The translations under genes were made by a program, and so were the position numbers. The notes beneath the pieces were generated by a model. The model ran no database searches. It saw only the letters and a program-made list of their open reading frames with translations, and was not told the DNA's origin. Positions 15,290 to 46,577 of a stretch of DNA of 64,000 nt are shown piece after piece. Where the stretch lies: positions 62,001 to 126,000 of IMG/VR virus record IMGVR_UViG_3300035703_000010. One strand, 5' to 3'. Each line of letters opens with the position of its first letter. Position 1 is the stretch's first letter. The stretch is from a virus.

Positions 15290-15592
15290 ATGGTATTTAA
15301 TAAAACAAAATTAATAAAGTCTTTAAATGAAGATGCAAAGTTTATCTATGAAGGACTAAATTCTCAAGAAGCTAGAGATTTATTTAAATGCGTCACGGAT
15401 CTTTATGAAGAAGTTAATGAATTTGAAAGTTCTGCACCTTCTGCAGCAATTGATGCATTGTCTCCTCATTTGACACGAGTTAAAGACATGCTTGAAACTA
15501 TGATGCAAAATCCAATGAATTACGTTTCTGATGCTAAGCAAGAAGATGAATCAGTTCCACAAAAAGTCATATTAAAGCCTTCTAAGGGTTGA
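15290..15592 (+). CDS. Small acidic protein between terminase and portal
   Basis: A 100-residue, mostly helical acidic protein starting at ATG 15290, preceded by an AGGAG ribosome binding site. The central part has heptad-like spacing (LFKCVTDLYEEVNEFE) and the tail is polar with a final PSKG. No domain is recognised. Its place between terminase and portal suggests a role in packaging or portal assembly, but that rests on position alone. Confidence 0.6.
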   Translation: MVFNKTKLIKSLNEDAKFIYEGLNSQEARDLFKCVTDLYEEVNEFESSAPSAAIDALSPHLTRVKDMLETMMQNPMNYVSDAKQEDESVPQKVILKPSKG

Positions 15593-15649: not shown

Positions 15650-17626
15650 GTGTCTAAAGAAAATAAAAATTTATTTCAAAGATTAAGTCGTTTATTTAAA
15701 AGCGGCCCTGTCGTAAAAAGAAAAGTAAAATCTCTTGACACTACTATTGCAGTCGCTGATAAAGTTAAATCATCAGGGGCTCTTCTTTTTCAAAGATCGA
15801 CGTCTCCTACATATTCAGTAATAACTGCTAATTCCTATAATCTCTCCGAGCGCTTGATGAGATATCAAGATTTTCAAGAGATGGAATACACTGCTGAAAT
15901 TGCAGCAGCGATGGACATTTATGCTGATGAAACTGTCGCACAAGATGATAAAGGAAGAGTTCTTCACATCTATTCTGATGATGAAAAAATAAGGGATATT
16001 CTTGAAGATCTTTTTTATAACGTTCTAAACGTAGAATTTAATTTAAGATCATGGGCTAGAAACTTAGTTAAATACGGAGATTTTTTCCTTTATAACGACG
16101 TTTCTCCCACACAAGGCGTCGTTCATGCATTTCCTATTCCTGTAAACGAAATAGAACGTGAAGAAAACTATGACCGTGAAGATCCTTTTGCAGTTAGATA
16201 TAGATGGTCTACTTTAGGAAATAGAACACTAGAAAATTGGGAAGTTACACATTTTAGGTTGTTAGGAAATGATATGTTTCTTCCTTACGGTTCATCTTTA
16301 ATCGAACCAGCAAGAAGAATTTGGAGACAATTGATTCTTCTTGAAGATGCTATGCTCGTTTATAGAATCGTTCGTGCGCCTGAAAGGCGTGTATTTTATA
16401 TAGACGTTGCTAACATACCTCCAGAAAACGTACCGATGTATGTTGAAGAACAACGTAAGAATCTTCGAACGAATCAAGTTATTGATCGTAATACTGGAAG
16501 AGTAGACTTGCGTTATTCTCCATTAAGCGTTGAAGATGATTATTTTATTGCAGTTCGCGGCGGAGAGTCTGGAACTAAAATTGATACGCTTTCAGGAGGT
16601 CAAAATGCTGCGACCGTTGAAGACGTACAGTACATGCAAAAGAAGTTATTTGCTGCATTAAAAGTTCCAAGAGCATACCTTGGATATGATGAAATGTTGT
16701 CTTCTAAGGCTACATTAGCTCAAGAAGACATACGTTTTTCTAGAACAATTAACGTAATTCAAAAAACTTTTATATCAGAACTTAATAAGTTAGCAATCAT
16801 TCATTTATATTCTAACGGTTATGATGGAGAAGAATTACAAAACTTTACATTAAGACTTTCAAATCCTTCAACAATCGCTCAGCAACAAAAACTTGAACTG
16901 TGGAAATCTAAGTTTGAAATTGGAGGCGCTCTTCCTGAAGGAATGGGAAGCAGAAGATTTGTTCAACGAGAGATTTGGGGTCTTAACGATGAGCAAATCG
17001 ATGAGATGAATGCTCAACGTTTGAAAGAAAAAATCACTGATCTAGGTATTGAAGGCGCGAAGGCAGAAGGTGGGGAAGAAGGCGGAGAAGCTGCTGGTGG
17101 AGCTGAAGATCTATTCGGAGGCGGAGAAGCTGGACCTGAAACAGGTGGCGAAGAACCAGCTGCTGGTGGAGAAACAGAAGAGGAAGAACTAACGGCTTCT
17201 GATGATGCTGCGGATGACGCAGGATTAGGAACTAAGCTTTTGATGTCTGGAGATATAGACGATGATATTTTGCCAAACCTAGATGAAAAAGACAAGCTTC
17301 CTGTATCACCAGGTGCTTATGCAAAAAAATACATGTATAACAGAAAAAGAAGAAAAGTGCAAAAGCACATGCCTGATTTTAATAAAATGTTATCATCAAA
17401 GAACCAATCCTTGTCAGATCCTAATGACAAAAATTGGATAAAAAGTTTAGTTAGCGATCCTTTTGGTGAATCAGTTAGCTTTGACGGTTCTTCATCTTCA
17501 CAGCCACCTTTGTCACCAAATATGATTTCTACCTTAAAAAGAATGACAAATTCTCTAGGAATTGCAAAAAAACAAGAAGGGCTTTTAGTAGAAAATCAAG
17601 AAATAGATATTGATATAAAAGAATAA
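15650..17626 (+). CDS. Portal protein (gp20-like)
   Basis: A 658-residue protein starting at GTG 15650 after a GAAGG ribosome binding site. The body matches T4-type portals: YQDFQEMEYTAEIAAAMDIY (residues 73-92), the clip/stem region with WRQLILLEDAMLVYRIVRAP, and FFAALKVPRAYLGYDE-like wing sequence (here LFAALKVPRAYLGYDE) followed by ALKS-type helices. Twelve copies should form the ring through which DNA enters and leaves the head. An unusual feature is the region from about residue 465 to 525, a low-complexity stretch of Gly, Glu and Ala that is absent from T4 gp20 and probably disordered. Confidence 0.93.
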   Translation: MSKENKNLFQRLSRLFKSGPVVKRKVKSLDTTIAVADKVKSSGALLFQRSTSPTYSVITANSYNLSERLMRYQDFQEMEYTAEIAAAMDIYADETVAQDDKGRVLHIYSDDEKIRDILEDLFYNVLNVEFNLRSWARNLVKYGDFFLYNDVSPTQGVVHAFPIPVNEIEREENYDREDPFAVRYRWSTLGNRTLENWEVTHFRLLGNDMFLPYGSSLIEPARRIWRQLILLEDAMLVYRIVRAPERRVFYIDVANIPPENVPMYVEEQRKNLRTNQVIDRNTGRVDLRYSPLSVEDDYFIAVRGGESGTKIDTLSGGQNAATVEDVQYMQKKLFAALKVPRAYLGYDEMLSSKATLAQEDIRFSRTINVIQKTFISELNKLAIIHLYSNGYDGEELQNFTLRLSNPSTIAQQQKLELWKSKFEIGGALPEGMGSRRFVQREIWGLNDEQIDEMNAQRLKEKITDLGIEGAKAEGGEEGGEAAGGAEDLFGGGEAGPETGGEEPAAGGETEEEELTASDDAADDAGLGTKLLMSGDIDDDILPNLDEKDKLPVSPGAYAKKYMYNRKRRKVQKHMPDFNKMLSSKNQSLSDPNDKNWIKSLVSDPFGESVSFDGSSSSQPPLSPNMISTLKRMTNSLGIAKKQEGLLVENQEIDIDIKE

Positions 17627-17712: not shown

Positions 17713-18570
17713 ATGTCGGCTCATAATAAGAAAAGAAACACTGGCTTGTTGTATGAATTTTTAATAAAGACGATATCACAAGCATTAGTAGATGATGATA
17801 AAAAAAGATCATCAAAAGCATTAAAGATAGTAAAAACTCATTTTAAGCCAGGAACAGAGTTATATAAAGAATTTAGATTAGTAAATTCTATAATGAAAAC
17901 TACTGTTAGTTCAGAGGCTGTTGCTTCATCAATTTTAAATGAAGCTAAATCTGCCGCAAGATCGCATGACTTAAATGCTCTTGATAAAGAAAAATCATTA
18001 TTGATTAGGTCAATAAACCACCAATTAAATGATGATAATTTTTATGATCAACATATTTCCGAATATAGAACTTTCGCTACAATTCAAAATCTCTTGAATG
18101 ACTGGAGATCAAAGTCTCCAGATTTATCAAGAATGGCAGAATATGAGGATCAGCTTGTTCGTTGGCTTGTGACTCAAAAGCAAGAGAAAAAAGATCATAT
18201 TGTCGTTGAAGGGTCTACTGGTTCTAGCAGACTTTTAATGAAAATCATGATGAAAAAGCTAGGCGAAAAATATGATAACGCTTTGACAAATGAGCAGAAA
18301 TCTTTGATAAAAGCATACGCATTTTCATCTGCAAATGACGATGACAAAACTATTTTATTGAAATTAAATGAAATAAAGCAAAAGCTTGTTGCATCGATAG
18401 ATTCATACATTTCAGAAAATTCTAGAGATGAAAAATACTTGTCTGACAAATTAAACCAAGTTAGATCAAGTCTTTTAGTTGAACACACTAAAGTTGATGA
18501 TTCGATAGTTGCTGAATACATGTTATACATCAAATTAATTGATGAATTGTCAGGAGGGGAAAATGTCTGA
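17713..18570 (+). CDS. Helical protein, possible prohead core component
   Basis: A 285-residue, highly charged and mostly alpha-helical protein starting at ATG 17713. It has no recognised domain. It lies between portal and prohead protease, the place of the small core genes 67 and 68 in T4, and its stop overlaps the protease start by 8 bp, so translation is coupled. The upstream gap of 86 bp is extremely AT-rich and contains a 16-bp palindrome at 17625-17640. A scaffold or core role is inferred from position and composition only. Confidence 0.6.
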   Translation: MSAHNKKRNTGLLYEFLIKTISQALVDDDKKRSSKALKIVKTHFKPGTELYKEFRLVNSIMKTTVSSEAVASSILNEAKSAARSHDLNALDKEKSLLIRSINHQLNDDNFYDQHISEYRTFATIQNLLNDWRSKSPDLSRMAEYEDQLVRWLVTQKQEKKDHIVVEGSTGSSRLLMKIMMKKLGEKYDNALTNEQKSLIKAYAFSSANDDDKTILLKLNEIKQKLVASIDSYISENSRDEKYLSDKLNQVRSSLLVEHTKVDDSIVAEYMLYIKLIDELSGGENV

Positions 18571-19174
18571 CTTAAGATTATTAAATTCATACCAAATTTT
18601 TGATTATACTCCTGAAAAAATAAGAGAAGCAAGAGAAGAAAATTCTGGAAAAATTGTCATGAAAGGAATTCTTCAAAAGTCTGACACTCTTAATCAGAAT
18701 GGAAGAATTTATCCTAGAGTTGTTTTAGAACGCGAAGTAAGAAATTATCAAAAATTTATAGTAGAAAATAGAGCGCTCGGCGAACTAGACCATCCAGATT
18801 CTTCAGTTGTTAATTTAAAGAATGTTTCTCATATTGTAAGAGAAGCATATTTAGACGGTGATGTTGTTTATGGCTCTGTAGAGATACTAGACACTCCATC
18901 AGGAAAAATCTTACAGTCTTTAGTAGAAAGCGGAGTGAAATTAGGAATTTCATCAAGAGGCGTAGGAACGACCAAGAAGCAAGGCGACTATCAAATAGTC
19001 CAAGATGATTTTCAATTAATTTGTTGGGACTTTGTTTCTGAACCTTCAACTCCAGGAGCATTTATGATGGCTGAAGGAAGACAAATTAATCCAGAAGAAT
19101 TGCAAAAAGTATTCACAAAGTCAGATAGAATTGATAGAATTCTAAACGACATTTTAGTTTCGAAAGGTAAATGA
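18563..19174 (+). CDS. Prohead maturation protease (gp21-like)
   Basis: A 203-residue serine protease of the T4 gp21 group. The catalytic histidine lies in ALGELDHP (His77), the nucleophile in KLGISSRGVG (Ser130 or Ser131), and VNLKNVSHIV links them in the pattern typical of the family. It cleaves scaffold and capsid precursor peptides after Glu at L/I-x-E sites. I choose ATG 18563 because a strong AGGAGGGG lies just before it; a longer frame from TTG 18539 would place that ribosome binding site inside the gene. The start overlaps the previous gene by 8 bp and the end overlaps the next by 4 bp. Confidence 0.92.
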   Translation: MSDLRLLNSYQIFDYTPEKIREAREENSGKIVMKGILQKSDTLNQNGRIYPRVVLEREVRNYQKFIVENRALGELDHPDSSVVNLKNVSHIVREAYLDGDVVYGSVEILDTPSGKILQSLVESGVKLGISSRGVGTTKKQGDYQIVQDDFQLICWDFVSEPSTPGAFMMAEGRQINPEELQKVFTKSDRIDRILNDILVSKGK

Positions 19175-19584
19175 ACATGGGAATGAAAGATCCTAGAGTA
19201 GGTTTCAATTCAGTTACTGAATTCATGGGATCAGGTCTCCCATGGGTTATAACTAGTACCGCTACAGACGTAGTCACACGTCATTCATTCGAAAAGATTA
19301 CAAAACATGTAATTATTCATAATTTAGCAGCTAGCGGAGTTTACCTTAGAGTAGGGTTCACTGAAAATGGAATCAATGGCGTCGGCGCTAGCTATTATTA
19401 CAAAGTTAATGGCGGACAAGTTTTTGAATTTGATGCTAGAATAAAAGAAGTTTTTATTTTAAGAGATGGAGCTACTAGCGCAGCTTATAGTTTATATGCA
19501 GAACTAACTAATATAGATTCATTTATGATGCCTATATTAACAGGATCTTTAAATGGTTCTCCATTTTGGAATGGGATTGGATGA
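19171..19584 (+). CDS. Small beta-rich protein, possible head-associated
   Basis: A 137-residue protein starting at ATG 19171, overlapping the protease stop (ATGA). An ATG at 19177 is also possible. The sequence alternates hydrophobic and polar residues in beta-strand style, with VIIHNLAASGVYLRVGFTEN (about 47-66) and VFILRDGATSAAYSLYAEL. The composition suits a small decoration or virion surface protein. It sits in the head gene cluster and its stop overlaps the next start by 4 bp. The family is not recognised. Confidence 0.6.
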   Translation: MNMGMKDPRVGFNSVTEFMGSGLPWVITSTATDVVTRHSFEKITKHVIIHNLAASGVYLRVGFTENGINGVGASYYYKVNGGQVFEFDARIKEVFILRDGATSAAYSLYAELTNIDSFMMPILTGSLNGSPFWNGIG

Positions 19585-20012
19585 TAAAAATGGGTATTAC
19601 TAAACAACAATTAAAGTCTATCGTAAAAGAGTGTTTGGTAGAAATTCTTTCTGAAGGAATTAATACAACAAAAAATTCTATTCAAGAAACAAGAAATTCT
19701 AAATCTTTTCAAAAGCCTATTTCTAATCAGCCTGTTCATAAACGTGGACAAAATGTGAAATATTCGCAGACACTAGCAGAGACAATAAAAAGAGAATCAA
19801 ACGGAAACCCCGTAATGGAATCAATTTTTGCTGATACAGCGGCAAGTACTCTTCAAACGATGTTGTCTGAAAATCAATATGCTCAACCGCAAGTACCTGC
19901 AGGCTCTATAGAAGGAACTGTCTCTCGCAGTACTCCTGAACAATTATTTGGAGATGATGTTGCTTCAAAATGGGCTGAACTAGCTTTTTCAGAAACTCCA
20001 AAGAAATTTTAA
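19581..20012 (+). CDS. Small protein with N-terminal amphipathic helix, possible internal head protein
   Basis: I place the start at ATG 19581, which overlaps the previous stop (ATGA), giving 143 residues. A second ATG at 19590 is equally usable. The N-terminus ITKQQLKSIVKECLVEILSE is a short amphipathic helix of a type that recurs at the N-termini of other small proteins in this window. The rest is Ser/Gln/Asn-rich and looks disordered, ending in a short helix WAELAFSE. Its location between protease and scaffold genes and the helix suggest a protein incorporated into the prohead core. This is inference. Confidence 0.6.
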   Translation: MIKMGITKQQLKSIVKECLVEILSEGINTTKNSIQETRNSKSFQKPISNQPVHKRGQNVKYSQTLAETIKRESNGNPVMESIFADTAASTLQTMLSENQYAQPQVPAGSIEGTVSRSTPEQLFGDDVASKWAELAFSETPKKF

Positions 20013-20066
20013 TTTTTTTTTTAGTAACAATAATTAAAGTATATATATTTGCACGAGGGTTATATC

Positions 20067-20369
20067 ATGAAGCTTACAACTACAGTATTAAAGAGAATAA
20101 TTGCAGAAGAAGTTGCCAAATTCAAGGAAGCAAAGCTATTTGGCGATATGGAATCAGTTGAAGATGTTGATGCAAAAGAAGTTGATGCAGATGAACTTGC
20201 TGATTCTCTTGAGCATCATGTAGATCATTACAAGGCTCTTGGTTTGGAAGAGGCTCGTTTAGTCAAGAGACTTTCACAGATTCAAGAAGCTAAGAAAAAG
20301 GTTGCAAAAAAAGTTGCATCAAAAAAAGCTGCATCTAAGAAGCCTGTAGAAAAAATGCCTAAAAAGTGA
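20067..20369 (+). CDS. Small core protein with lysine/alanine-rich tail
   Basis: A 100-residue protein. ATG 20067 is preferred because CGAGGG lies 7 bases upstream; a TTG at 20049 would also be in frame. The N-terminus KLTTTVLKRIIAEEVAKFKE is the amphipathic helix shared with other small proteins here. The middle is very acidic, and the last 25 residues are made of Lys and Ala with AKKVASKK-type repeats, like histone H1 tails. An acidic middle followed by a basic tail would suit a core protein touching packaged DNA, as for internal head proteins. Function is inferred. Confidence 0.6.
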   Translation: MKLTTTVLKRIIAEEVAKFKEAKLFGDMESVEDVDAKEVDADELADSLEHHVDHYKALGLEEARLVKRLSQIQEAKKKVAKKVASKKAASKKPVEKMPKK

Positions 20370-20414
20370 TTGATCTATTTTATAATTTTAATTTCTTTGT
20401 AAGGAGGAAATAAT

Positions 20415-20909
20415 ATGGCTGGTCAAGGAAAATATACTGTTTATGCTCCGCCTAGTGGCGAAAAAAATACTTTGCTAGCGAAGTTATTTCCAAAATCTCC
20501 AACTGCACAGTTTGTTGGAAAAGAAGAAGATTACAGAAAAATCGTTCTTGAACAAGGAAATTTGAATCTAAAGAATGGATTACAAATGGGAGATTCATAC
20601 TTTGGAACTGGTGTGAATATGGATTTTGTAGGCTCACCGGACATCAGCAAAGGTGCTGATGGAATGTGGACAAGATCAGGAGATCCTGCAAATTCATACA
20701 CACCAGACATAACATCTCCAGGACCAGGAAAGACGGACGGGTCTGATAAAAATGAAGATCCTGGAATAAAAGCAGTCGATTTAAAGCCTACCTATGTCCC
20801 AGGTGGTCCCAATACTGGAACAAGAAATCCAGCTGAGTTTGCAAAAAAGATTGCTGCGCAAACGTTGGGTGTCGCTAATAAGATGGGATCTTCAGATTCT
20901 AACGGTTGA
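20415..20909 (+). CDS. Unknown head-cluster protein, Gly/Pro-rich
   Basis: A 164-residue protein with a very strong AAGGAGGA ribosome binding site 7 bases before ATG 20415, suggesting high expression. The N-terminus AGQGKYTVYAPPSGEKNTLL is followed by a short helical part (KEEDYRKIVLEQ). The second half is Gly/Pro/Asp-rich and likely disordered, ending in a helix AEFAKKIAAQTLGVA. No family is recognised. Its place next to scaffold and capsid genes implies a head role. Confidence 0.6.
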   Translation: MAGQGKYTVYAPPSGEKNTLLAKLFPKSPTAQFVGKEEDYRKIVLEQGNLNLKNGLQMGDSYFGTGVNMDFVGSPDISKGADGMWTRSGDPANSYTPDITSPGPGKTDGSDKNEDPGIKAVDLKPTYVPGGPNTGTRNPAEFAKKIAAQTLGVANKMGSSDSNG

Positions 20910-20926
20910 TTTTCGGAGATAATAAA

Positions 20927-22876
20927 ATGTCAAAAGAACTATACGAAGAAGCCATTGCTGATTTAAAGAAAGTAAAAGAAGTTGCAGAGGATAATGCAAA
21001 GCGTGCTATCGTTGAAGCAGTAGCTCCTCGTATAAGAGAATTGATTGAAAAAGAATTGTTAGGTGAATCCGTCGATGACCCAGAGGAAGGTATGGGCTGT
21101 GAATCTGAAGAAAAAGACGATGAGATTCTAACCGATAAGAAACCAGCTGATTCTGAACATGGTGATTCGGAGCATGACGACAAAGATTCATCTTCTTCAA
21201 AAGATGAAATGATGGGTGTAGATGAAATGACAAATGAAAATGAAGTTGTAGAAAACGTCATTTCTCCATCCATCGTTGAAGAAAAAGATGAAGTCGAAGA
21301 AAAATTACTCTACATTGAAACAATGTTGGACAAACTTTCAACATCACATATCTTTGAATCAAAGACATTTGGTCTAAGTTTAATCAGATTAAATGAGATG
21401 GTTGAAGCAATATATGGATATATCCAAGAATGTGTAGAGGATCCTAATGTCAGATTGGGATATGGATTAAAATTAAGAAAGTGTTTAAATAAACTTGAAA
21501 AACTTCAGGAGACAAAAATGAATCGAGATCTTTTAAATGAAGAAGACGTTATGTTAACAATCACAGGACTCCCAGATGATCTTGATCTTGAGGGTCTTGG
21601 AGTCACTTTACAAACCGGTGAAGAAGGAGAAGAAGCTCCTGAAGGTGAAGAAGGTGGCGAAGAAGAAGCAGAAGGAGAAGAAGCTCCTGAAGGAGATGAG
21701 GGCGGCGAAGAAGAGCTTGACCTTGACCTTGGAGGAGAATCAGAAGGCGAAGAAGAAGCAGGGAAGAAAGAAGAATCTCTTCAACTTTCTGATGACATGA
21801 TCGTTGAAATCGACGAAGGCATGCTCCGCCGTGAAATTTCTCGTATGAAAACTCTTCGTGAAGCTCATGATGAAGCTCATGATGTTCAGGCATGGGGTCA
21901 TGGAGCTGGTGATGTTTCAAGCGAGGAAGATTTTGAAGCAGACGATTTAGGAGAACCTCTTGAATTAGACCTTTCTGAGGCTCTTGCTGAACTTGATGGT
22001 GCAGCAACTCAAGGAGCTGCAACAGAACTTGAAGATTATACAGCTGAAGCTAAACCATCTTTAGATAAAGAAGAAGTCGAAGAAATGTATGAAGAAGTCG
22101 ATGAAGAAGTCGATGAAGAAGTCGATGAAGCTTCATGCGATGAAGAAGATTCTCAACATGAAGTTGATGAAGAGCTTGAAGAAATGATGGGTCAGGCATA
22201 TGATGAATCTGACAAGCAGCATTCTTCTGCTTCTCAACCTAACAGACAAACAAGAGAATCAATTCGTTCTGAAATGGCTAAGGAGCTCAAGCTACAAGAG
22301 TCACTTCGCGGACGAGCTGCTCAATTAAAGAAGCTTTATGAATCTTCAAAGAAAGCTTCTTCAAAGGCTTCTACAATTCTTGAAAGAAAAGAAGCTTCTC
22401 ATAAGGAAGCTCAAGTCAAGAAAGCATATGCTGAAACAGCAGATCGTTACAATGCTTCTGTAACACGATTTAACAAACTTTCACAAACCTTAGAAGAAGG
22501 TTTAACAAAGAACGTTCGCTCAAATAGCGATGTAAACCCTGTCGCTAGCACAGGTTCTGATACGCTACGCAAGAAGTTGGCAGAAACGAATCTGCTCAAC
22601 GCAAAGCTTCTCTTTACGAATAAGCTTCTTCAAACAGAGTCGCTCACTGCTCGCCAAAAGGCACAGATAATTGAGCAACTTGATTCAGCTGAAACAATTC
22701 GTGAAGCTAAGCTTGTGTACGAGAGCCTCTCAAAGGCTTTAATGAAGACTCGTACAACTGTGACAGAAGGCCGAATCCTCGGATCATCTTCACAAGCAAC
22801 ACGTCCTGCTTCAACCCAAACACTCAACGAAGGCATTGAAGCAGAGCGTTGGGCAAGACTCGCAGGCATCAAGTGA
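20927..22876 (+). CDS. Prohead core scaffolding protein (gp22-like)
   Basis: A 649-residue very acidic protein. Start ATG 20927 follows a GGAG ribosome binding site; a TTG at 20906 would also be in frame but overlaps that site. The N-terminal 60 residues are helical, then there are long runs of Glu/Gly (about 225-285) and further Glu/Asp clusters near 390-420. The C-terminal 190 residues are helical with ETNLLNAKLLFTNKLLQ and ARQKAQIIEQLDSAETIREA, a pattern I associate with gp22-type scaffolds of marine T4-like phages. It lies directly before the capsid gene. At 649 residues it is more than twice the length of T4 gp22. C-terminal codon use shifts toward that of the capsid gene. Confidence 0.8.
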   Translation: MSKELYEEAIADLKKVKEVAEDNAKRAIVEAVAPRIRELIEKELLGESVDDPEEGMGCESEEKDDEILTDKKPADSEHGDSEHDDKDSSSSKDEMMGVDEMTNENEVVENVISPSIVEEKDEVEEKLLYIETMLDKLSTSHIFESKTFGLSLIRLNEMVEAIYGYIQECVEDPNVRLGYGLKLRKCLNKLEKLQETKMNRDLLNEEDVMLTITGLPDDLDLEGLGVTLQTGEEGEEAPEGEEGGEEEAEGEEAPEGDEGGEEELDLDLGGESEGEEEAGKKEESLQLSDDMIVEIDEGMLRREISRMKTLREAHDEAHDVQAWGHGAGDVSSEEDFEADDLGEPLELDLSEALAELDGAATQGAATELEDYTAEAKPSLDKEEVEEMYEEVDEEVDEEVDEASCDEEDSQHEVDEELEEMMGQAYDESDKQHSSASQPNRQTRESIRSEMAKELKLQESLRGRAAQLKKLYESSKKASSKASTILERKEASHKEAQVKKAYAETADRYNASVTRFNKLSQTLEEGLTKNVRSNSDVNPVASTGSDTLRKKLAETNLLNAKLLFTNKLLQTESLTARQKAQIIEQLDSAETIREAKLVYESLSKALMKTRTTVTEGRILGSSSQATRPASTQTLNEGIEAERWARLAGIK

Positions 22877-22932
22877 TCCTCGAGTAAACAACTTTTTTAA
22901 CAACTTTTTGTACACGTATAGGAGATACAACA

Positions 22933-24825
22933 ATGAAGACTTTTACAATTGAACAACTTTCACAAGGCATTCGCGAAAAGCACGTCGGTGCCGAGCGTGC
23001 CCGTTTAACAGAAAAGTGGAGCCGCACAGGACTCCTCCGTGGCCTTGATGGTCAACGCCGCGAGATGATGGCACAACTTCTTGAAAACCAAGCAGCACAA
23101 GTCCTCAAGGAGAGCTCAGCTCTTTCTTCAGGCGGTGGAAACGTAACATCATCTGGACAAATCCAAGGCTTCTCTAACATCGCCTTCCCAATTGTCCGCC
23201 GAGTGTTCGGTGGCCTCGTCGCCAACGAGCTCGTTTCTATCCAACCAATGAGCCTTCCATCAGGTCTAATCTTCTACCTTGATTACACATATGGAACCAA
23301 CGTTGGTCAAGCAGCTGGACAAACCTCTGAGGCTACATACTCCAGAGGAACATCCATCTACAACAACCCAACCGGCCGCGGAGTCCAATCAGGATCTCTT
23401 GCAACTGGTGGTATGTACGACCTCGTTGGAACAGGTTACTCAAAGGTAACAGGTTCTCTTACAGCAGTCAACTTCGCTGCAGCTTCAGTTTACTCAGGAT
23501 CATGGGGCGGTGCAGATGGCTTAACATGGACAGACGGCTTAGTTCTTGGAACAGGAACAAGCTTCAGCGGTTCAAATGCTCGTTTAATGGACTTCGATAG
23601 CCAAGTTGAGACAGCACTCACAAACAACGATCTAGACGCACTCTTCGTCTATCTTCCAACAAGCGCATTAACCGGTGCTGATTTACTTGCAGTTGACCAA
23701 ATCGCTGTTTTCAGCGGCTTCGGTGCAAACGCAACAGCATGGGGAGATTCTTACCAAGGTGGAAGCGGCGTTCTCAACCTTCGTCGCCTCAACAAGCGTG
23801 GAACTCTTACAGGAACAGGAACATCATTGAAGTTCGTACCAGACGCACTCAATGGTAACTATGTCCAATTCGTTCTTAAGGGAGCAAACGGACTTTCTGC
23901 TCTCACATCAGCAACAGGTCGCGTTACCTTCGTCAAGTCTGATACAGTCTCTGCTCTTGGCGGAGACGGTGCAGGAGCCGGTGCAACACTCACAGTTCCT
24001 TCATTCGAATCTGATTTCGGAACGACACCATCTCCAGCAATCCCAGAGATTGACATCAAGATTGAGTCGCTCGCAATCACTGCAACAACCCGCAAGCTAC
24101 GTGCTCGCTGGTCACCAGAACTCGCACAAGACCTCAATGCATACCATTCAATGGATGCAGAGGTTGAGCTCACCTCAATCCTCTCAGAGCAAATCGCTCT
24201 TGAGATCGACCGCGAGATCCTCAATGACCTCGTTACACAAGCCAACGGCGCAAACTACTACTGGTCACGCGCTCCAGGCAAGTTCGTCAACAAGGTAACA
24301 GGAGCACCAGTTACTCTCGCATCTTCACTCTCTATCGGACCGGCCTTCACAGGTACAGTTCGCGAGTGGTACGAGACACTCGTTGAGACAATCATCGACG
24401 TTGCAAACACCATCCACCGCAAGACACTCCGCGGAAGTGCAAACTTCCTCGTCTGCGGTCCAGATGTTGCGACAGTCCTTGAATCATCTGTTCTCTACAA
24501 GCCAAAGTTCTCCATCGATGGTGAAGGACAAGTTGCTTCTCCATTCACAATCGGTGCAGAGGCAATCGGTTCACTCAGCAACCGCTTCACAGTCTACAAG
24601 GATCCTTACTTCGTTCGTAACAAGATCCTCGTCGGCTACAAGGGCGGCAGCTACCTCGAGACAGGCTACGTCTACGCACCATACGTTCCACTCATCGTGA
24701 CACCAACAATCTTCGCACCAGAAGACTTCACACCACGTAAGGGCGTGATGACTCGCTACGGTAAGAAGATGGTTCGCTCCGACTTCTTCGGAACAGTCAC
24801 TTGCTTGGACATGAACATCATCTGA
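22933..24825 (+). CDS. Major capsid protein precursor (gp23-like)
   Basis: A 630-residue precursor with ATG 22933 after an AGGAGA ribosome binding site. The N-terminus is a helical delta peptide, ending near VLKESS. L58-x-E60 fits the gp21 cleavage consensus, which would release residues 1-60. The HK97-type core follows, with GFSNIAFPIVRRVFGGLVAN at about 77-96 and typical gp23 C-terminal segments such as DPYFVRNKILVGYKGG and YVPLIVTPTIF. A Ser/Gly/Ala-rich insertion (about 125-370) may form a surface domain. The gene uses many C-ending codons, unlike most neighbours, as expected for the most abundant virion protein. A strong terminator follows. Confidence 0.96.
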   Translation: MKTFTIEQLSQGIREKHVGAERARLTEKWSRTGLLRGLDGQRREMMAQLLENQAAQVLKESSALSSGGGNVTSSGQIQGFSNIAFPIVRRVFGGLVANELVSIQPMSLPSGLIFYLDYTYGTNVGQAAGQTSEATYSRGTSIYNNPTGRGVQSGSLATGGMYDLVGTGYSKVTGSLTAVNFAAASVYSGSWGGADGLTWTDGLVLGTGTSFSGSNARLMDFDSQVETALTNNDLDALFVYLPTSALTGADLLAVDQIAVFSGFGANATAWGDSYQGGSGVLNLRRLNKRGTLTGTGTSLKFVPDALNGNYVQFVLKGANGLSALTSATGRVTFVKSDTVSALGGDGAGAGATLTVPSFESDFGTTPSPAIPEIDIKIESLAITATTRKLRARWSPELAQDLNAYHSMDAEVELTSILSEQIALEIDREILNDLVTQANGANYYWSRAPGKFVNKVTGAPVTLASSLSIGPAFTGTVREWYETLVETIIDVANTIHRKTLRGSANFLVCGPDVATVLESSVLYKPKFSIDGEGQVASPFTIGAEAIGSLSNRFTVYKDPYFVRNKILVGYKGGSYLETGYVYAPYVPLIVTPTIFAPEDFTPRKGVMTRYGKKMVRSDFFGTVTCLDMNII

Positions 24826-24851
24826 TAGTCGGAAACGACAATCTTTGATAG

Positions 24852-24890
24852 GAAAGGCCTTCGAAAGAAGGCCTTTCTTGTTTTTGTTTG
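24852..24890 (+). terminator. Rho-independent terminator after major capsid gene
   Basis: A perfect 11-bp stem (24852-24862 with 24867-24877) closes a GAAA tetraloop and is followed by a T-rich run to about 24889. The stem contains the AAGGCC core that recurs in three other terminators in the window. It ends the head operon. Confidence 0.9.
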
Positions 24891-24896
24891 TAATAA

Positions 24897-24921
24897 ACAT
24901 GCAATAATATAAATTGCATGT
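24897..24921. promoter_or_regulatory. Inverted repeat with AT-rich centre after capsid terminator
   Basis: ACATGCAAT (24897-24905) is mirrored by ATTGCATGT (24913-24921) around a 7-base AATATAA centre. It lies just after the capsid terminator and upstream of the accessory island, so it may be an operator or promoter element for the island. No protein binding is known. Confidence 0.4.
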
Positions 24922-24983
24922 CTTTAGAATATTAAATCGTAGATTTATCTTGATGTTGTTATCACTAGAAGATATATAGTTTT

Positions 24984-25316
24984 ATGAAGAATCTTCGAGA
25001 TATTGTTGAAGAAAAGCGTTTGCGTCAAATTATAAAAGAAGAAATAGAATCTTTGAAGTTAACAGAGCAGACAGACACTGAATTAAATCGTTTTGTGAAA
25101 GACTTTGAAAGCGTCATTAGAAGCAGTGATTTTAAATCTAAGATTAGACCTGCAATATTACATATTTTTTCTGATGATCCTAAAGATGCGAAGCCTATTG
25201 ATTTTCAAGCATTAGGACATGTGTTATTTGATTTGATGAAGAGCCCTAATGAATCAGACATCAACGATATATGCAATTTATTGAAAAACTTAGCAAGAGA
25301 GCGTAAGCGAAGATAA
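24984..25316 (+). CDS. Small helical protein with recurrent N-terminal helix
   Basis: A 110-residue protein starting at ATG 24984. The N-terminus (RLRQIIKEEIESLKL, about residues 13-27) is another example of the short amphipathic helix shared by several small proteins of this phage. The rest is predicted helical, with RPAILHIFSDD and DINDICNLLKNLARERKRR at the end. It stands after the capsid terminator and before an HNH nuclease. Function is unknown. Confidence 0.6.
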   Translation: MKNLRDIVEEKRLRQIIKEEIESLKLTEQTDTELNRFVKDFESVIRSSDFKSKIRPAILHIFSDDPKDAKPIDFQALGHVLFDLMKSPNESDINDICNLLKNLARERKRR

Positions 25317-25352
25317 GTTTTATCTTGTTATTCCTTAGCCTATAGTCAATAT

Positions 25353-25679
25353 GTGAAACGTCGCAGAACGTATGGTCAAGTCAAATTAAAGAAAGATCTA
25401 TGCGAAATTTGTAGCTGTGATCGATCTGCTGCATTGAACATACATCATATTATTCCAAGATGCGATCCTCGATGTTCAAATGACAACCACAACCTCGCTG
25501 TCGTTTGTCACACGTGTCACGACCTAATCCATGCAGGCGAAATTACAATTATTGGCGTTTATTCTTCTACGGGAGGAAGAAAGCTAATGTGGTTCCGTGA
25601 AGGAGAAGATCCTCCATTAGACAAGGAGTTCTGGAAGGTCAAAGAAAATCCTTTAGTATTAAGACGTAGGAAACATTAA
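25353..25679 (+). CDS. HNH endonuclease
   Basis: A 108-residue protein starting at GTG 25353 (an overlapping ATG at 25351 is out of frame). The zinc-stabilised HNH core is clear: Cys17-x2-Cys20, the catalytic His31-His32 (HHIIP), Asn44-Asp-Asn-His-Asn, and Cys52-x2-Cys55-His. Such small nucleases are either mobile homing-type enzymes or help packaging. It stands alone beside an accessory island rather than next to terminase, so a mobile origin is plausible. Confidence 0.8.
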   Translation: MKRRRTYGQVKLKKDLCEICSCDRSAALNIHHIIPRCDPRCSNDNHNLAVVCHTCHDLIHAGEITIIGVYSSTGGRKLMWFREGEDPPLDKEFWKVKENPLVLRRRKH

Positions 25680-25720
25680 TCTTTTTTATAATTTTTTTGT
25701 GAAGGAAATATAATTGTTCT

Positions 25721-27184
25721 ATGTCAACAAGAAAAAGTGATTTTCTAAAAAGAGTTACGATCTTTTCATGTCTGCTGGGAACTTTGGTTTATGGTTGCGT
25801 TAGACCAAATCCAAATAAATTAGCAGGAGATACGTCTGCTGTTTTTAATGATTGTCCGACACCCTCAGACGTCGTTACAACCGTTGATGTTGTAACAGGA
25901 ACAACAACTGCTGGTGTTGAATCATCATCTAGTAAGACGTCAGGAATTTCAGCTGTTTCTACTGGTTCTGGTGAACAGAAACAAGAAGAGACCGAACTTG
26001 ATAATAGAGAGCTAGACTATTCAGAAGCTCTTCGCACTGCCAGCTTTTTAATAGTCGGAGATTCTCCTACTCTTTTTGAGATTTATGAATTAGGAGATCT
26101 TCCGCTAGATCAAAAAAAGCAAAAGTATGAAGAGTTAATTGATTCTAAGTTATCTGATCCAAGATTTGCTGATACGTTAGTTGAATTTTTTAAGTACACT
26201 TTTAAGATGGGTGGTGCTGCAACGACACCAGGAGAACCGACAAGAGACACTGCACCGACTTTTGCAGCAAGGACTGTTTATGAAGAAAAAGATTGGAGAA
26301 ACATTTTAACTCAAGATTCTAATACATGTCCTACATACAATCCTATGACAAAAGTATTTTCAGACGGAGATTGCAATAATCTTCCTGCTGGAATGAAACA
26401 TTCGGGAATTCTCACAGACCCCGGCGCACAAAGCTTATATTACGGTAATTTATCTTTTAGAAGAAATCGTTTCTATCATGAAACTTTTCTGTGTTTGTCC
26501 GGTAACGAACAAGCCGGTGGAGAACCGACTGATCAGCCACCTGTTGTATCACCTTGTAGTGGAGTAGATCCTATACCCGGATATCAAAATAAATGGCCTG
26601 TTAATGAAATTGCAGGAGAATGCAACGGTGGTAGAGTAGATTTTCATGCGTATAACACGAGCAACGTTTGTGCAAATTGCCATGCAACGTGGAATCATCG
26701 TTCACCTTTATTCAGTCAATTCGATTCTAGAGGAATTTTTCAACCATTGACGCCATCTGGAGAATATTCTGTATTTGTTCCAGTTGAAGGATCTCCTAGA
26801 GCAAAAATGTCAGATTGGTTGTGCGTAGATCCTGTTAAATGCCCTAATGGAGGAAACAATTTTACTGCATGGAAAAAAACTATGAAAGTTGATGGAGTTG
26901 AAGTTCCTGCTTTTGCATCAACTATTAATGAGTTAGGATCTCAAATGGCTAAAGATGATGAAGTCATTGAATGTGCGGTCAAAAGAATTTGGAATTATTC
27001 CATGGGCCGTGCTGACATAACTGAGATAGGCGGTAGAAGTTGGGTAAACTTACCTGATCGAAAAGATAAAAATGAAGAATTAATGACTATGAGCAAGTTA
27101 GTTTCTCAGTTTAAAGGAAATGGATACAACTTGAAGAAAGTTTTTAGAACAATTTTGGTATCGGATGACTTCACGAGGTTTTAA
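25721..27184 (+). CDS. Exported lipoprotein with c-type heme motif, DUF1588/DUF1585-like
   Basis: A 487-residue protein. The N-terminus is a signal peptide (FLKRVTIFSCLLGTLVYGC) ending at a lipobox-like Cys26, followed by a Ser/Thr-rich linker. From about residue 95 it resembles planctomycete and Bdellovibrionota cytochrome proteins. It has a helical segment FLIVGDSPTLFEIYELGDLP, a single CANCH heme-attachment motif (Cys317, Cys320, His321) within NVCANCHATWNHRSPLFSQF, and a C-terminal DUF1585-like part with NYSMGR and NLKKVFRTILVSDDF. The protein would sit in the outer membrane or periplasm and bind heme c. It is the first of three linked genes. Such a gene in a phage head region is unexpected. 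Family calls are from memory of motifs. Confidence 0.75.
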   Translation: MSTRKSDFLKRVTIFSCLLGTLVYGCVRPNPNKLAGDTSAVFNDCPTPSDVVTTVDVVTGTTTAGVESSSSKTSGISAVSTGSGEQKQEETELDNRELDYSEALRTASFLIVGDSPTLFEIYELGDLPLDQKKQKYEELIDSKLSDPRFADTLVEFFKYTFKMGGAATTPGEPTRDTAPTFAARTVYEEKDWRNILTQDSNTCPTYNPMTKVFSDGDCNNLPAGMKHSGILTDPGAQSLYYGNLSFRRNRFYHETFLCLSGNEQAGGEPTDQPPVVSPCSGVDPIPGYQNKWPVNEIAGECNGGRVDFHAYNTSNVCANCHATWNHRSPLFSQFDSRGIFQPLTPSGEYSVFVPVEGSPRAKMSDWLCVDPVKCPNGGNNFTAWKKTMKVDGVEVPAFASTINELGSQMAKDDEVIECAVKRIWNYSMGRADITEIGGRSWVNLPDRKDKNEELMTMSKLVSQFKGNGYNLKKVFRTILVSDDFTRF

Positions 27185-27185
27185 G

Positions 27186-28187
27186 ATGAAAATGCTGAAC
27201 AACAAATTTCTAAGTACATTAACGTTATTATTTATTGTTTCATGTGGTTCCGATGCTGCTGATATAAATGAAGGAGATTGTGAACAGCAAAAACAAAGTT
27301 CTTCAACTTTGTCTTCTCAGTCTTCTTCTGTAACTTCTTCTGTAACTTCAGGCGGAGGTGAGAAACAAGATCAACCTGTTTCTACAGCAGGTGCTGGAGG
27401 ATCTTCTCAATTACCTTCATACGATGTACCAACTCCTGATGAAATATCTTCTAGATTGCATTCATGTCATAAACTTTCTTATTCTCAGCTTGGAAACTTC
27501 TTAAGAGCTCGAGGAGCAGCGATTCCGTTTGGTAGCGTTTCAGATGTTAGAACTACTCAAGTTTCAGTGTTCGGAATGACTCAAACATTAGGATCTATAT
27601 TCGGCGGAAGCGGAGCGTCATGTGAGATGGCTGTTACTGTAGCAAATGGAACAAACGATCCTATTTGCCAAGGAAATGAAGTTTGTTTTTGCAACCAAGA
27701 CGATAAGATGAATCAAGTTAATCGTAGCTGTCTAGACGTAGGAAATAACTCTCCTGATGCCGCAGATGGATATTGCGTCGCAAAACCTGCTACTGCAGGT
27801 TATTTGTACTTTACTGGTAAAGATGCATTAGGAGTTCCTAAATTAGATTCTAGATTAGGAGAGAAAGATGAACATACGACTGCATCTGCAATGAGGTTGA
27901 TGGATATTTTCATTCAATCAGCGCCACAAATTATTGCAAATATTAGCGATCCTTCTAAAGCTCCTGCATGTACATTAAATGGTAAAAACAAACCGATGTT
28001 TGCTGCTGATGGAAGTTGTATAGAGGAATCAGTAAGCTGTTTGATAGGAATTCCAGCTACTGAAGATCATATGCTTCTTTGTAATTTATTGGTTGGAAAA
28101 GCTAATTCAAATGATGCGACTGATGTAATGAAAAAAAGAAATATCGCAGTATCTGTTTTGTTGTCTGCAGCACATTCATGTCAATGA
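27186..28187 (+). CDS. Lipoprotein, partner of the cytochrome-like and Tat proteins
   Basis: A 333-residue protein. ATG 27186 is preferred because MKMLNNKFLSTLTLLFIVSC is a clean lipoprotein signal peptide with cleavage before Cys20; an in-frame ATG at 27165 lies within the previous gene. A Ser-rich and Gly-rich linker (about 35-80) follows. The mature part has many cysteines and a conserved-looking LHSCHKLSYSQLGNFLRARG near residues 92-111. Only 1 bp separates it from the preceding stop and 13 bp from the next start, so the three genes form one operon. No enzyme domain is recognised. I infer an envelope partner of its neighbours. Confidence 0.7.
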   Translation: MKMLNNKFLSTLTLLFIVSCGSDAADINEGDCEQQKQSSSTLSSQSSSVTSSVTSGGGEKQDQPVSTAGAGGSSQLPSYDVPTPDEISSRLHSCHKLSYSQLGNFLRARGAAIPFGSVSDVRTTQVSVFGMTQTLGSIFGGSGASCEMAVTVANGTNDPICQGNEVCFCNQDDKMNQVNRSCLDVGNNSPDAADGYCVAKPATAGYLYFTGKDALGVPKLDSRLGEKDEHTTASAMRLMDIFIQSAPQIIANISDPSKAPACTLNGKNKPMFAADGSCIEESVSCLIGIPATEDHMLLCNLLVGKANSNDATDVMKKRNIAVSVLLSAAHSCQ

Positions 28188-28200
28188 AGGAAAATAAAAA

Positions 28201-29805
28201 ATGTCAAACTGGAAATTAAAAGATCTTCGTAATGATAGACGTAGAACATTCTTAAAAATGTGTACTGTCGCAGCTGCAGTCGCAGGAATAGAAAGAACAA
28301 AATTACTAAATTTCCTTGCTGATGAAGGCGGCTATGGTTTAGCAGAAGCAGCTGGATCTACTTATGGACGATCATTGCTTGTTCCTTCGCCAAATGGAGT
28401 TTATGCATGGTTCCAAGAATTGTGGCCTGTTGCTGATGTTGGTCTAAAAGCTTGTCAAAACGCTAATGTTCCTGGATTGTCTTCAAACTTTGGAGGAACA
28501 TCATCTTATCTTTACACGTCTCAAAGAGGATATAACCCAGCAAATGGATACAGAGGAACTTATACAACTGGTAAAGGAAATCAAATGCCATCTTTGCCGA
28601 TGGGCGTAAAATCTTGGGACGGAGGAGACAAACCTTTCTTTTATGGTCCTGATGCTCCATGGTTTGACCATGTTTCTGGAAAACCGAAATATCCTGTGAC
28701 AGCATTCATGTCAGGAAAAGATGAAACTCATACAGAATTTCCAATTTCTCACATGTCTTTATCTGGAAATTCAACTCTTCAAGCAGCATTAGCTTCATTA
28801 GGCGCAGCAGGATCTTCTGCAATAGTTCCTGTCTTAGGTATAGATCCAGTAAAATATGGTCGTGCCCCTGGAGCTCCTGAGGTTGCGACAGTTCCAAGTT
28901 CTTTAGGTATGATTGACTTGTTTAATAGCGCTGCAAGCCAATTTACATTATTGAATAAAACTGATCAAGAATTGTTTGAGACATATTACAAGGCTCTTGT
29001 AGGTTTGAGAAAGTCTTCAAATAAATCATCATGGATTCCACAGATGTCAATAACCAAGAATTCTGCTAGAATCATTGGGTTAAATTTTGCATCTCAACTT
29101 ACTCCAACATCTCAAGATTTGGTCGATTTTGGTATTCAAGAAATGGTTGACAATGTAACTTCTAATTCAAATTATATGACTGCTGCTCAAAGAGCCGGAA
29201 TAGAAGAATTTGGAAGGGTTTTAATTGTAGTTGCAAAAGCATTTACGCTAGGATTATCTAAAACTGCAATTGTAGCCTTATCTCCAGGTCCGACTAGCGA
29301 CACGACCTTCACGGATCCTCACGTTACATTTGATAATTCTACCTTATTAAACCAAGGAAGAAATACTACGAAACATTTAGGGAAGGTTCTAGATGGTTTC
29401 TATAACTATTTATCGCAACAGGTGGATCCTGAAAGCCCTTCTGAGAAGTTAGATAAAAGCACTGTCTTTGTTGCTTATGGAGACACTCCTCATACTCCGT
29501 TAGTAGGGTCTACATGGCCTGACGCAACTCCTGATGCTTGTAATTGGATGTATGTTATGGATCCTCGTGGTCATATAAAGAATGGATGGTTCGGCCATGT
29601 TTATGCTAATAAAGTTAATAATCGAAATGCAGTAGGGTTTAATCCTTTAACAGGTATGGATGATGTCACAAAGACGTCTGAGCAAGTTTCTGCTTTTGCT
29701 TCAACTGCAACAGTATTTTCAGTAGCAAACGGAGATTCTAATAAGGCATCTGAATATGGAAATTCTCCTAACATCGTTTCAGGATTGATTAATAGCATAA
29801 AATGA
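28201..29805 (+). CDS. Tat-exported DUF1501/DUF1552-like protein
   Basis: A 534-residue protein. The N-terminus carries a twin-arginine export signal (RRRTFLK, Arg14-Arg15) followed by an Ala-rich stretch. Downstream, VPSPNGVYAWFQE (about 61-73) recalls the PNGV motif of DUF1552, and the C-terminal VFVAYGDTPHTPLV and the later GHIKNGWFGHVY resemble the tail of DUF1501 proteins. These families belong to the alkaline phosphatase/sulfatase-like superfamily and are usually encoded beside cytochrome-type DUF1592/1588/1585 proteins, as here. It would fold in the cytoplasm, possibly with a cofactor, and cross the membrane through Tat. The start follows GAAGGA. No function is established for the families. 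Confidence 0.75.
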   Translation: MSNWKLKDLRNDRRRTFLKMCTVAAAVAGIERTKLLNFLADEGGYGLAEAAGSTYGRSLLVPSPNGVYAWFQELWPVADVGLKACQNANVPGLSSNFGGTSSYLYTSQRGYNPANGYRGTYTTGKGNQMPSLPMGVKSWDGGDKPFFYGPDAPWFDHVSGKPKYPVTAFMSGKDETHTEFPISHMSLSGNSTLQAALASLGAAGSSAIVPVLGIDPVKYGRAPGAPEVATVPSSLGMIDLFNSAASQFTLLNKTDQELFETYYKALVGLRKSSNKSSWIPQMSITKNSARIIGLNFASQLTPTSQDLVDFGIQEMVDNVTSNSNYMTAAQRAGIEEFGRVLIVVAKAFTLGLSKTAIVALSPGPTSDTTFTDPHVTFDNSTLLNQGRNTTKHLGKVLDGFYNYLSQQVDPESPSEKLDKSTVFVAYGDTPHTPLVGSTWPDATPDACNWMYVMDPRGHIKNGWFGHVYANKVNNRNAVGFNPLTGMDDVTKTSEQVSAFASTATVFSVANGDSNKASEYGNSPNIVSGLINSIK

Positions 29806-29834
29806 TTTTTTAATATTTTCGCATATTTAATGAA

Positions 29835-30608
29835 ATGCAAGACAAGCTAATAAAAGAATACGTTCGTCTAGTTTTAGAAAAAATCCGAACCGTCAAAAAA
29901 GGTTCTCCGTTTGGAGACAGGTTTGACGTTAGAAAGTTTAAATCTCTTGAAAACATAGAATTCATGAAAGCTTATGCTGATTCATTCCTTGAAATGTTAG
30001 GTGAAGGTTCTTCTAGAGTTGCTTACGCTTTATCAAGCAATAAAGTTCTTAAGATAGCATTAAATAAAAAAGGTATTGATCAAAACATTGCAGAATTAGA
30101 TGTTTTTACGAACCCGTTGACAAAACCGATGATATCTAAAATCCAAGATTATGATAATGACTATAGATGGTTGATTGCTGATTCTGTAAGAATTTTTAAT
30201 AATGAATCTGAATTTGAAAAAGAGACAGGATTAGCTTTCCAAAGTTTTGTAGAAGAAGTAAAAAATGCTCTAGTAAAATCTGTTCCACCTGAATCTGAGC
30301 TTGCAGCAAACACAGTAAAAACAATAGAAAATTCTGAATTGATGTTAGGAGATGTTGCTAGGATAGAACATTGGGGTAAATCAGCGGATGGAAGGGTTGT
30401 TTTGTTAGATTACGGCTTTACAAAAGAAGTTTGGAAGACTCATTATGCTAAAAAAGCACCTCCAAAGCCTCCTCGTAATCCTAAAAAATTACGAAATATA
30501 GAAGATCCTATTGCGTATGCGTCTACAGAAAAAGCTACAATTCCTGTAAAGAAAACTGATGATTTGCCTACATTGCCACTAACGATATCTACACGTCGTG
30601 TAGATTAA
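29835..30608 (+). CDS. Protein kinase-fold protein with DYG motif
   Basis: A 257-residue protein. The N-terminus again has a short amphipathic helix (KLIKEYVRLVLEKIRT). Kinase-like elements follow in order: a Gly-rich loop LGEGSSRVAY (55-64), a beta-3 lysine in VLKIAL (Lys73), an acidic residue in the next helix (Glu87), and VLLDYGFT (Asp192-Tyr-Gly), which stands in for the DFG metal-binding loop. The usual HRD catalytic loop is not obvious; GDVARIEHWG (172-181) occupies its place. Thus it could be an atypical kinase or an inactive one. The C-terminal 55 residues are Pro/Lys-rich. Similar proteins occur in other large myoviruses without known function. Confidence 0.6.
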   Translation: MQDKLIKEYVRLVLEKIRTVKKGSPFGDRFDVRKFKSLENIEFMKAYADSFLEMLGEGSSRVAYALSSNKVLKIALNKKGIDQNIAELDVFTNPLTKPMISKIQDYDNDYRWLIADSVRIFNNESEFEKETGLAFQSFVEEVKNALVKSVPPESELAANTVKTIENSELMLGDVARIEHWGKSADGRVVLLDYGFTKEVWKTHYAKKAPPKPPRNPKKLRNIEDPIAYASTEKATIPVKKTDDLPTLPLTISTRRVD

Positions 30609-43331: not shown

Positions 43332-43388
43332 TGCTAAAAATTCTTAGGTAATCTGATACTTATCAAGCAAGTTGTAGGAGCGAAATAA

Positions 43389-46439: not shown

Positions 46440-46495
46440 AATTAATTCGATAAAAATGTTCGATATGTTTAGACATTAAAATATCGAATAAATTT

Positions 46496-46527
46496 TAAAG
46501 GCCTCTTATGAGGCCTTTATTTTTATT
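46496..46527 (+). terminator. Rho-independent terminator after sheath paralogue 2
   Basis: A perfect 10-bp stem (46496-46505 with 46510-46519) with a TTAT loop, followed by TTTTTATT. The stem holds the AAAGGCCTC core, related to the capsid, fiber and tube gene terminators. Confidence 0.88.
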
Positions 46528-46577
46528 GGTATGCATAGATAAAATCTGCATAGTTATGAATCAAAGAATCTTGTTAA

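Follow-up and report, generated by a model that had tools for sequence, protein, structure and literature searches.

A recurring N-terminal helix on unrelated small phage proteins, a probable capsid-targeting leader

In this study, we analysed a window of 64,000 nucleotides (bases 62001-126000 of the 204,651-base IMG/VR virus record IMGVR_UViG_3300035703_000010) and found that a short N-terminal helix recurs, far beyond chance, on otherwise unrelated small proteins of this phage and its relatives. The leader is about 22-25 residues long, and its more frequent form (class I) has the consensus M-K-[IL]-[ST]-x-x-x-L-[KR]-x-I-[IV]-x-E-[EC]-[LVI]. It had been noticed at four gene starts in the stretch 19581-29900, which lies on the plus strand in and beside a T4-type head module (portal, S77 prohead protease and gp23 capsid protein). 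Judging from sequence comparisons, we consider it probable that the helix is a capsid-targeting leader, which would take its protein into the prohead, often be cut by the S77 protease and leave the body in the head, to be ejected, probably, with the DNA. Two coordinate systems are used; positions refer to the window unless they are marked as record coordinates.

A motif search through all proteins of the genome confirmed the N-terminal excess and placed it far from chance. With the expression L[KR].[IV][IVL].[EQ], and the first 45 residues counted as N-terminal, the record gave nine matches (in eight proteins) in 9,763 N-terminal residues versus two in 56,418 internal residues (Fisher P 1.4e-6, residues being treated as independent). 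The 935 non-redundant proteins of 87 related loci gave 46 matches in 41,814 N-terminal residues versus three in 111,733 internal ones. In eight long records an N-terminal match was present in 52 of 1,611 proteins, a number that averaged 2.5 and never exceeded 10 when the N-termini were shuffled 100 times, and the 880 proteins of random IMG/VR contigs had no N-terminal bias (one N-terminal and six internal matches). From 25 leaders we derived a tag profile 23 positions long and searched with it 2,546 proteins of the own and related genomes, some genomes being counted twice, as record and as locus; N-terminal matches outnumbered internal ones by 137 to 20 at an E value of 1 or less and by 103 to 2 below 0.001. 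One of these last two internal matches stands behind a Met of its own and the other is a second copy within a tagged protein. The mean hydrophobic moment of the tags was 0.30, versus 0.22 for the N-termini of random-contig proteins and 0.25 for shuffled tags, which corresponds to a moderate amphipathicity.

The bodies behind the leader are diverse. We collected 251 distinct tagged proteins with a median length of 117 aa (range 46-762), and when 98 of the longer and 149 of the shorter ones were aligned, they had little in common except the leader, which agrees with the description of unrelated small proteins in the first-pass annotation. A Pfam scan, which covered 247 of the 251 (two long proteins and two under 50 residues lay outside it), identified few of them, as DnaJ, WGR, PAP2 and FliG_C. 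DnaJ and WGR domains, both over the Pfam cut-offs, occur together in one tagged protein (L062:10663-11760), and a protein in record G033 has a below-cut-off match to RMF (ribosome modulation factor); the remaining matches were weak and one-off and were not relied on. The DnaJ-WGR and RMF-like domains, of kinds that act on host machinery in cells, also suit the view that the helix docks elsewhere, on a phage or host adaptor, a membrane or the ribosome, and is unconnected with the head; short amphipathic helices fit many kinds of docking, and a large number of tagged genes are remote from the head module. We hold this to be distinctly unlikely, given the association with the S77 protease and the head module, the coupling to a protease-type site and the Cys-poor bodies, all of which are described below.

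Identical leader peptides on different contigs are written in different codons, so it is the peptide that is conserved and not the nucleotide sequence. For one leader of 15 residues, ten copies had ten DNA sequences, with a mean difference of 5.9 in 45 bases, and one of three such groups was less diverged (2.7 in 45 bases). A degenerate DNA pattern of the tag was found in at least 120 IMG/VR stretches and the same letters reordered in none, a result that proves over-representation alone. These observations bear on the idea that the leader is a remnant, a single family having been duplicated or recombined with bodies that change fast behind a start that changes slowly. Tandem arrays would agree with such an origin: in G033 (L434, G033:48000-64000) at least 15 small tagged genes follow one another within 7.6 kb, an array that is possibly a cargo island. 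The synonymous differences between identical leaders (in one group less so) and the over-representation of the pattern argue against it, as does the fact that homologous bodies bear different leader classes; the protein at 170971 (record coordinates) has a class I leader, but its body is shared (56% identity over 282 residues) with a protein of record G001 that starts with the rarer class II leader described below. A remnant is thus very improbable in our estimation.

Behind the leader lies a site of the form L/I-x-E, C-terminal to which the T4 protease gp21 cuts, as described in PMC9026906. The Glu stands mostly 13 or 14 residues past the motif Leu and less often 10. In a set of 161 proteins with distinct bodies, 95 had a site with Glu at +10 to +18, versus a mean of 51.8 and a maximum of 64 in 1,000 column permutations, the distinctness of the bodies having been judged by a rough word test, so that some relatives are left in the set; later windows of the same proteins held L/I-x-E in 20 of 161, 8 of 157 and 17 of 150. 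The coupling was found for Glu (110 observed versus 58.6 expected), with nine other residues near or below expectation (the highest was Ser, 28 versus 21.7), and among gaps of one to five it was strong at two only (gap three, 54 versus 45.0). In the position after the Glu, Gly is enriched 3.8-fold (23 of 88) and Ala 1.9-fold (16 of 88), and Leu is rare. The statistics thus follow the same rule as T4 gp21. The motif includes an I-x-E of its own, so the protease might also cut within the helix.

One could suppose that the helix does target the prohead core but as a rule stays uncut, L/I-x-E being merely the way in which an amphipathic helix ends and the proteins being core components that are kept or discarded whole. 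The family of the tagged protein at 20067, which mostly has no canonical site behind the leader, would fit, and so would T4 gp68, which PMC9026906 lists as an uncleaved core protein. That the coupling is specific to Glu, is strongest at gap two and has Gly or Ala next, and that L-x-E-G is invariant in the family of the protein at 19581, makes this unlikely, and we continue to prefer a leader that is frequently cut.

The leader is associated with the S77 protease across records. The tag pattern was used to fetch 25 IMG/VR records of 60 kb or more; each contains profile matches, with a maximum of 29, as expected of records chosen by the tag. S77 is present in 18 of these 25, including all ten of at least 127 kb, versus two of ten random contigs of at least 60 kb (Fisher P 0.008) and three of 18 of at least 42 kb; the best tag match in the 18 random contigs had an E value of 0.011. 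A tagged gene was flagged in 13 of the 18 S77 neighbourhoods, in records chosen for having tags. When the own record and 21 relatives found by the capsid protein were considered, 21 of the 22 matched the tag profile at E up to 1.

The phage group is almost uncultured, since a head-module protein of this group, a relative of the protein encoded next to the portal gene at 17713, when searched against 50,697 phage records (E up to 1e-5), matched only Flavobacterium phage immuto (four records), Mel-JY01 and LR756508. Immuto, with profile matches at 7e-5 and 0.06, is the sole clear cultured-phage candidate among those searched (immuto35A_190). In the uncultured LR756508 (484 kb) the profile finds 21 matches with an E value of 0.1 or less, one of which contains a stop. 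No profile match was found in RM378 or Mel-JY01, and in KVP40 and HTVC008M there is a single match apiece, weak and partial. When the 23-residue consensus was searched against cultured phages by tblastn, three weak matches emerged (E 0.3 to 5); the one in LR756508 is real by the profile, and the other two, both in Pectobacterium phage PM2, were regarded as chance, since the profile matches nothing in PM2.

The amino acid composition of the bodies suggests in a different way that they reside in the virion. Tagged bodies contain 0.41% Cys, versus 1.17% in other proteins of the same phages and 1.03% in those of them that have homologues elsewhere. Among proteins of 80-120 residues, 85% of 75 tagged bodies are free of Cys, versus 35% of 252 untagged proteins with homologues. 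T4 provides a yardstick, with 0.56% Cys in the plus-strand genes of the morphogenesis region (26 genes) versus 1.33% in minus-strand genes (203) and none in IPII and IPIII, and the own record behaves alike, with 0.58% in the head-tail region versus 1.18% in the rest of the record outside the window. The comparison was unplanned, the difference having been noticed first and examined afterwards. It suggests that the scarcity of Cys, as in head-tail proteins, is an independent sign of residence in the virion.

Several observations weigh against a capsid-targeting leader that is cut. Only 146 of 254 tagged proteins have L/I-x-E at +10 to +18. Seven of the eleven class I proteins of the own record have a site; the other four, at 82049 (20067 in the window), 163672, 194968 and 196845 (record coordinates), have none in the searched stretch, and the protein at 141492 (record coordinates) has one only far behind the leader. 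No S77 gene was seen in seven of the 25 tagged records, which measure 62-125 kb and may be fragments, and five of the 18 S77 neighbourhoods contain no flagged tagged gene. The tagged bodies are acidic, with a median of -3.4 charges per 100 residues and only 76 of 248 positive. Class II is weakly represented beyond the clade of the phage itself, its matches in 1,585 proteins of other tagged loci numbering three N-terminal versus two internal. The profile matched nothing in T4 (E up to 0.1), with its leader MKTYQEFIAE, nor in PM2, S-SM2 and P-HM1, so homology to the T4 leader is not demonstrated. The first-pass annotation had proposed a T4-like capsid-targeting tag; the coupling to the site, the phage's own S77 protease, the location of tagged genes in the head module and the Cys-poor bodies speak for such a function.

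At least 11 proteins of the own record carry the helix, eight by the expression and three more by the profile (142003, 194968 and 196845, record coordinates); two weak profile matches, at 138571 and 192350 (minus strand; record coordinates), both of which begin MKI, were left uncounted. Of the four starts named by the first-pass annotation, re-reading of the sequences upheld the helix at 19581, 20067 and 24984, each of which matches expression and profile, whereas 29835 lies outside both. No Pfam match was found for any of the four at E up to 0.001. The first protein (19581..20012, plus strand, 143 aa) begins with the class I leader MIKMGITKQQLKSIVKECLVEILSEG and is predicted to be cut after E25 of ...EILSE-G, that is, after base 19655; in 19 aligned relatives L11, K16, E21, L23, E25 and G26 are invariant and the stretch behind them is free. 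No phage record matched this protein at E up to 0.01. The second (20067..20369, plus strand, 100 aa) has the class I leader MKLTTTVLKRIIAEEVAKFKEA, directly behind which F-K-E-A stands in place of L/I-x-E, and a Lys-rich C-terminus; relatives of it are known. For the third (24984..25316, plus strand, 110 aa; class I leader MKNLRDIVEEKRLRQIIKEEIESLKLTEQ) a cut is predicted after E28 of LKLTE-Q, and in a relative with 80% identity (L005) E-Q-T is kept and V-D-E replaces L-T-E.

A further small protein, encoded between the terminase and portal genes (15290..15592, plus strand), begins with MVFNKTKLIKSLNEDAKFIYEGL, which looks like a decayed or variant leader; the tag profile search did not match it. 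It is the by-eye counterpart of proteins in records G001 and G002 (L010 and L018) whose bodies match a class I tagged protein of L046 (38.6% over 70 residues). The own protein at 146641 shares 37.5% over 80 residues with the leaderless own protein at 197440 (record coordinates). The latter (197440-197841, plus strand; record coordinates) and its relatives have a domain MA-x-SQL...LPxWV, which occurs in tagged and untagged proteins of several records.

The head module starts with a portal protein of gp20 type (15650..17626, plus strand; phrog_213, E 1.4e-69). The adjoining gene (17713-18570), with an N-terminal HNKK[RK]N or HNKRRN motif and no Pfam family, lies next to the portal gene in the window and in 18 of 18 S77 neighbourhoods (L416-L433), and its product is a candidate core protein of this phage group. 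The S77 prohead protease of gp21 type (18563..19174, plus strand; PF03420, 94.8 bits), presumably the enzyme that cuts the leader, has the motifs GELDHP and GISSRG in common with its relatives, and we take these motifs to hold the catalytic residues. A large acidic protein with no family match (20924..22876, plus strand) is by position alone placed as the scaffold gp22 and presumed to be the leader-binding core; it contains 26 L/I-x-E sites versus 16.8 in shuffles (P 0.006). The major capsid protein of gp23 type (22933..24825, plus strand; PF07068, 260.9 bits) has a conserved L58-K59-E60-S61 (L58 83% and E60 85% in 66 aligned capsid proteins), and its propeptide is likely to be cut after E60 (after base 23112), near the point at which T4 gp23 loses 65 residues according to PMC9026906. 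Further downstream, three consecutive open frames of 1016, 1016 and 1039 codons (40281-49697, plus strand) follow one another, the first with weak, below-cut-off tail-sheath matches.

The kinase-like protein (29835..30608, plus strand, 257 aa) begins with MQDKLIKEYVRLVLEKI, a leader of class II, which matches the class II expression [LI][LIVM][RK][EQN][YF][IVL][RKQ]; the form of this class is LL[RK]E[YF][IV]R. The strict form occurred at 12 N-termini versus a single internal position among the 2,546 proteins of the own and related genomes, and when L/I-x-E was also required the numbers in this set were 11 and 0, all these counts being rough because of duplicates; in proteins of random contigs no class II match was found, either N-terminal or internal. 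A looser class II expression also catches an orthologous family, unlike a leader (ELGELKKLVKEFVSRIE...). The S77 proteases of 14 of the 18 tagged records start in a manner like [LIV][LI][RKQ]E[YF], with Arg or Lys in 11 cases. T4 gp24 begins MAKINELLRE-S, the hyphen marking its cut, and this start resembles LL[RK]E[YF] of class II, although over a short stretch only, and gp24 belongs to the shell and not to the cargo.

The kinase-like protein itself is not among the 11 N-terminal class II matches with L/I-x-E because it has V-L-E in place of that site. This, and the different leader class, weakens the earlier suggestion that it is packaged, and we see an even chance that it enters the head. 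It has no Cys in its 257 residues. We term it kinase-like on a few conserved positions, namely GSSR, K and D-x-G, which are kept in its family (five relatives in the own and related records; L470-L472). A search of the PDB for the family gave one chance-level match (E 0.14) and no solved relative, and AlphaFold without an alignment gave a model with a mean predicted local distance difference test score of 33, too low to be of use. In 18 records of cultured phages, including 121Q, PBECO4, XacN1 and Slicko01, members of the family were found as unnamed hypothetical proteins (E up to 0.01); in a search for viral contigs with a relative, none was confirmed. A relative with 48% identity begins MSQTLLREYLDLMLE, and those in XacN1 and Slicko01, both of which encode S77, begin MKQVRLSQFLSE-A and MKIYNLYSTLLE-A, a form close to T4 MKTYQEFIAE-A. 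T4-like leaders failed as a general mark in these two phages (N-terminal/internal 4/8 and 1/6).

Between the head module and the kinase-like gene lie three genes on the plus strand (25721-29805), the first with below-cut-off matches to PSD2/DUF1585 and PSCyt2/DUF1549. The same gene order is present in a metagenome-assembled genome (MAG) contig labelled as Deltaproteobacteria (L468), and the last two genes also occur in two Polyangiaceae MAG contigs (L467, L469); the last gene is 73-76% identical in protein and about 63-65% in DNA. The three genes are probably a host-derived operon, which gives a hint that a bacterium of the Deltaproteobacteria/Polyangiaceae type is the host of the phage.

Taken together, we propose that the leader binds the prohead core during head assembly and thereby would bring the trailing protein into the prohead, where the S77 protease, as the site statistics suggest, may in many cases cut after the Glu of the L/I-x-E behind the helix. 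The freed body would stay in the head with the DNA and probably be ejected into the host. One interchangeable leader would serve many unrelated bodies, and the rarer class II leader LL[RK]E[YF][IV]R, which the kinase-like protein carries along with some others, probably has the same role. A wider proposal, to which we give the same odds for as against, is that such interchangeable leaders form a prefix code by which a large, almost uncultured group of T4-related phages loads fast-changing small effectors, with as many as about 30 in one phage, some of them in tandem islands. If so, much of the dark accessory genome would consist of injected proteins, which the leader by itself would suffice to list. 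T4 injects a handful of proteins, and to our knowledge those injected by other large phages are mostly unknown where there is no proteomics. A leader that can be read from sequence would make candidate injected proteins listable in many uncultured phages. Its role would account for many unassigned small proteins of these phages, and it is a potential new tag for loading phage heads in protein delivery.

No description of the leader was found in the open-access PMC literature, a search that leaves preprints and most subscription papers outside. The closest known systems are the T4 capsid-targeting sequence (CTS), carried by IPI-IPIII and Alt and removed by gp21, and the propeptides of giant phages. 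The latter (SPN3US gp53, gp54 and gp47; phiKZ) are likewise N-terminal, are cut after x-x-E by a gp21-related protease and have been proposed to target proteins into the prohead, as reported in PMC5694885 and PMC7411985; they are mostly longer than 100 residues, whereas here one short leader stands on many unrelated bodies. With the T4 CTS the present leader shares its place as a common N-terminal stretch on different small proteins, the L/I-x-E that follows (here in a statistical sense), an S77 protease encoded in the genome and the absence of Cys, which IPII and IPIII (MKTYQEFIAE-A) have in common with most tagged bodies. It differs in its length of about 22-25 residues, versus the 10-19 given for T4 in PMC9026906, in its strict helix motif with up to 29 matches per record, in its spread over an almost uncultured group and in its acidic bodies, the T4 internal proteins being described as basic in the same source. 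According to PMC9026906, ten N-terminal residues of IPIII are enough for packaging, and proteins fused to its leader are packaged and delivered, so there is precedent for one leader that serves many bodies. Despite having no detectable homology to it, the leader is best explained as functioning like the T4 CTS.

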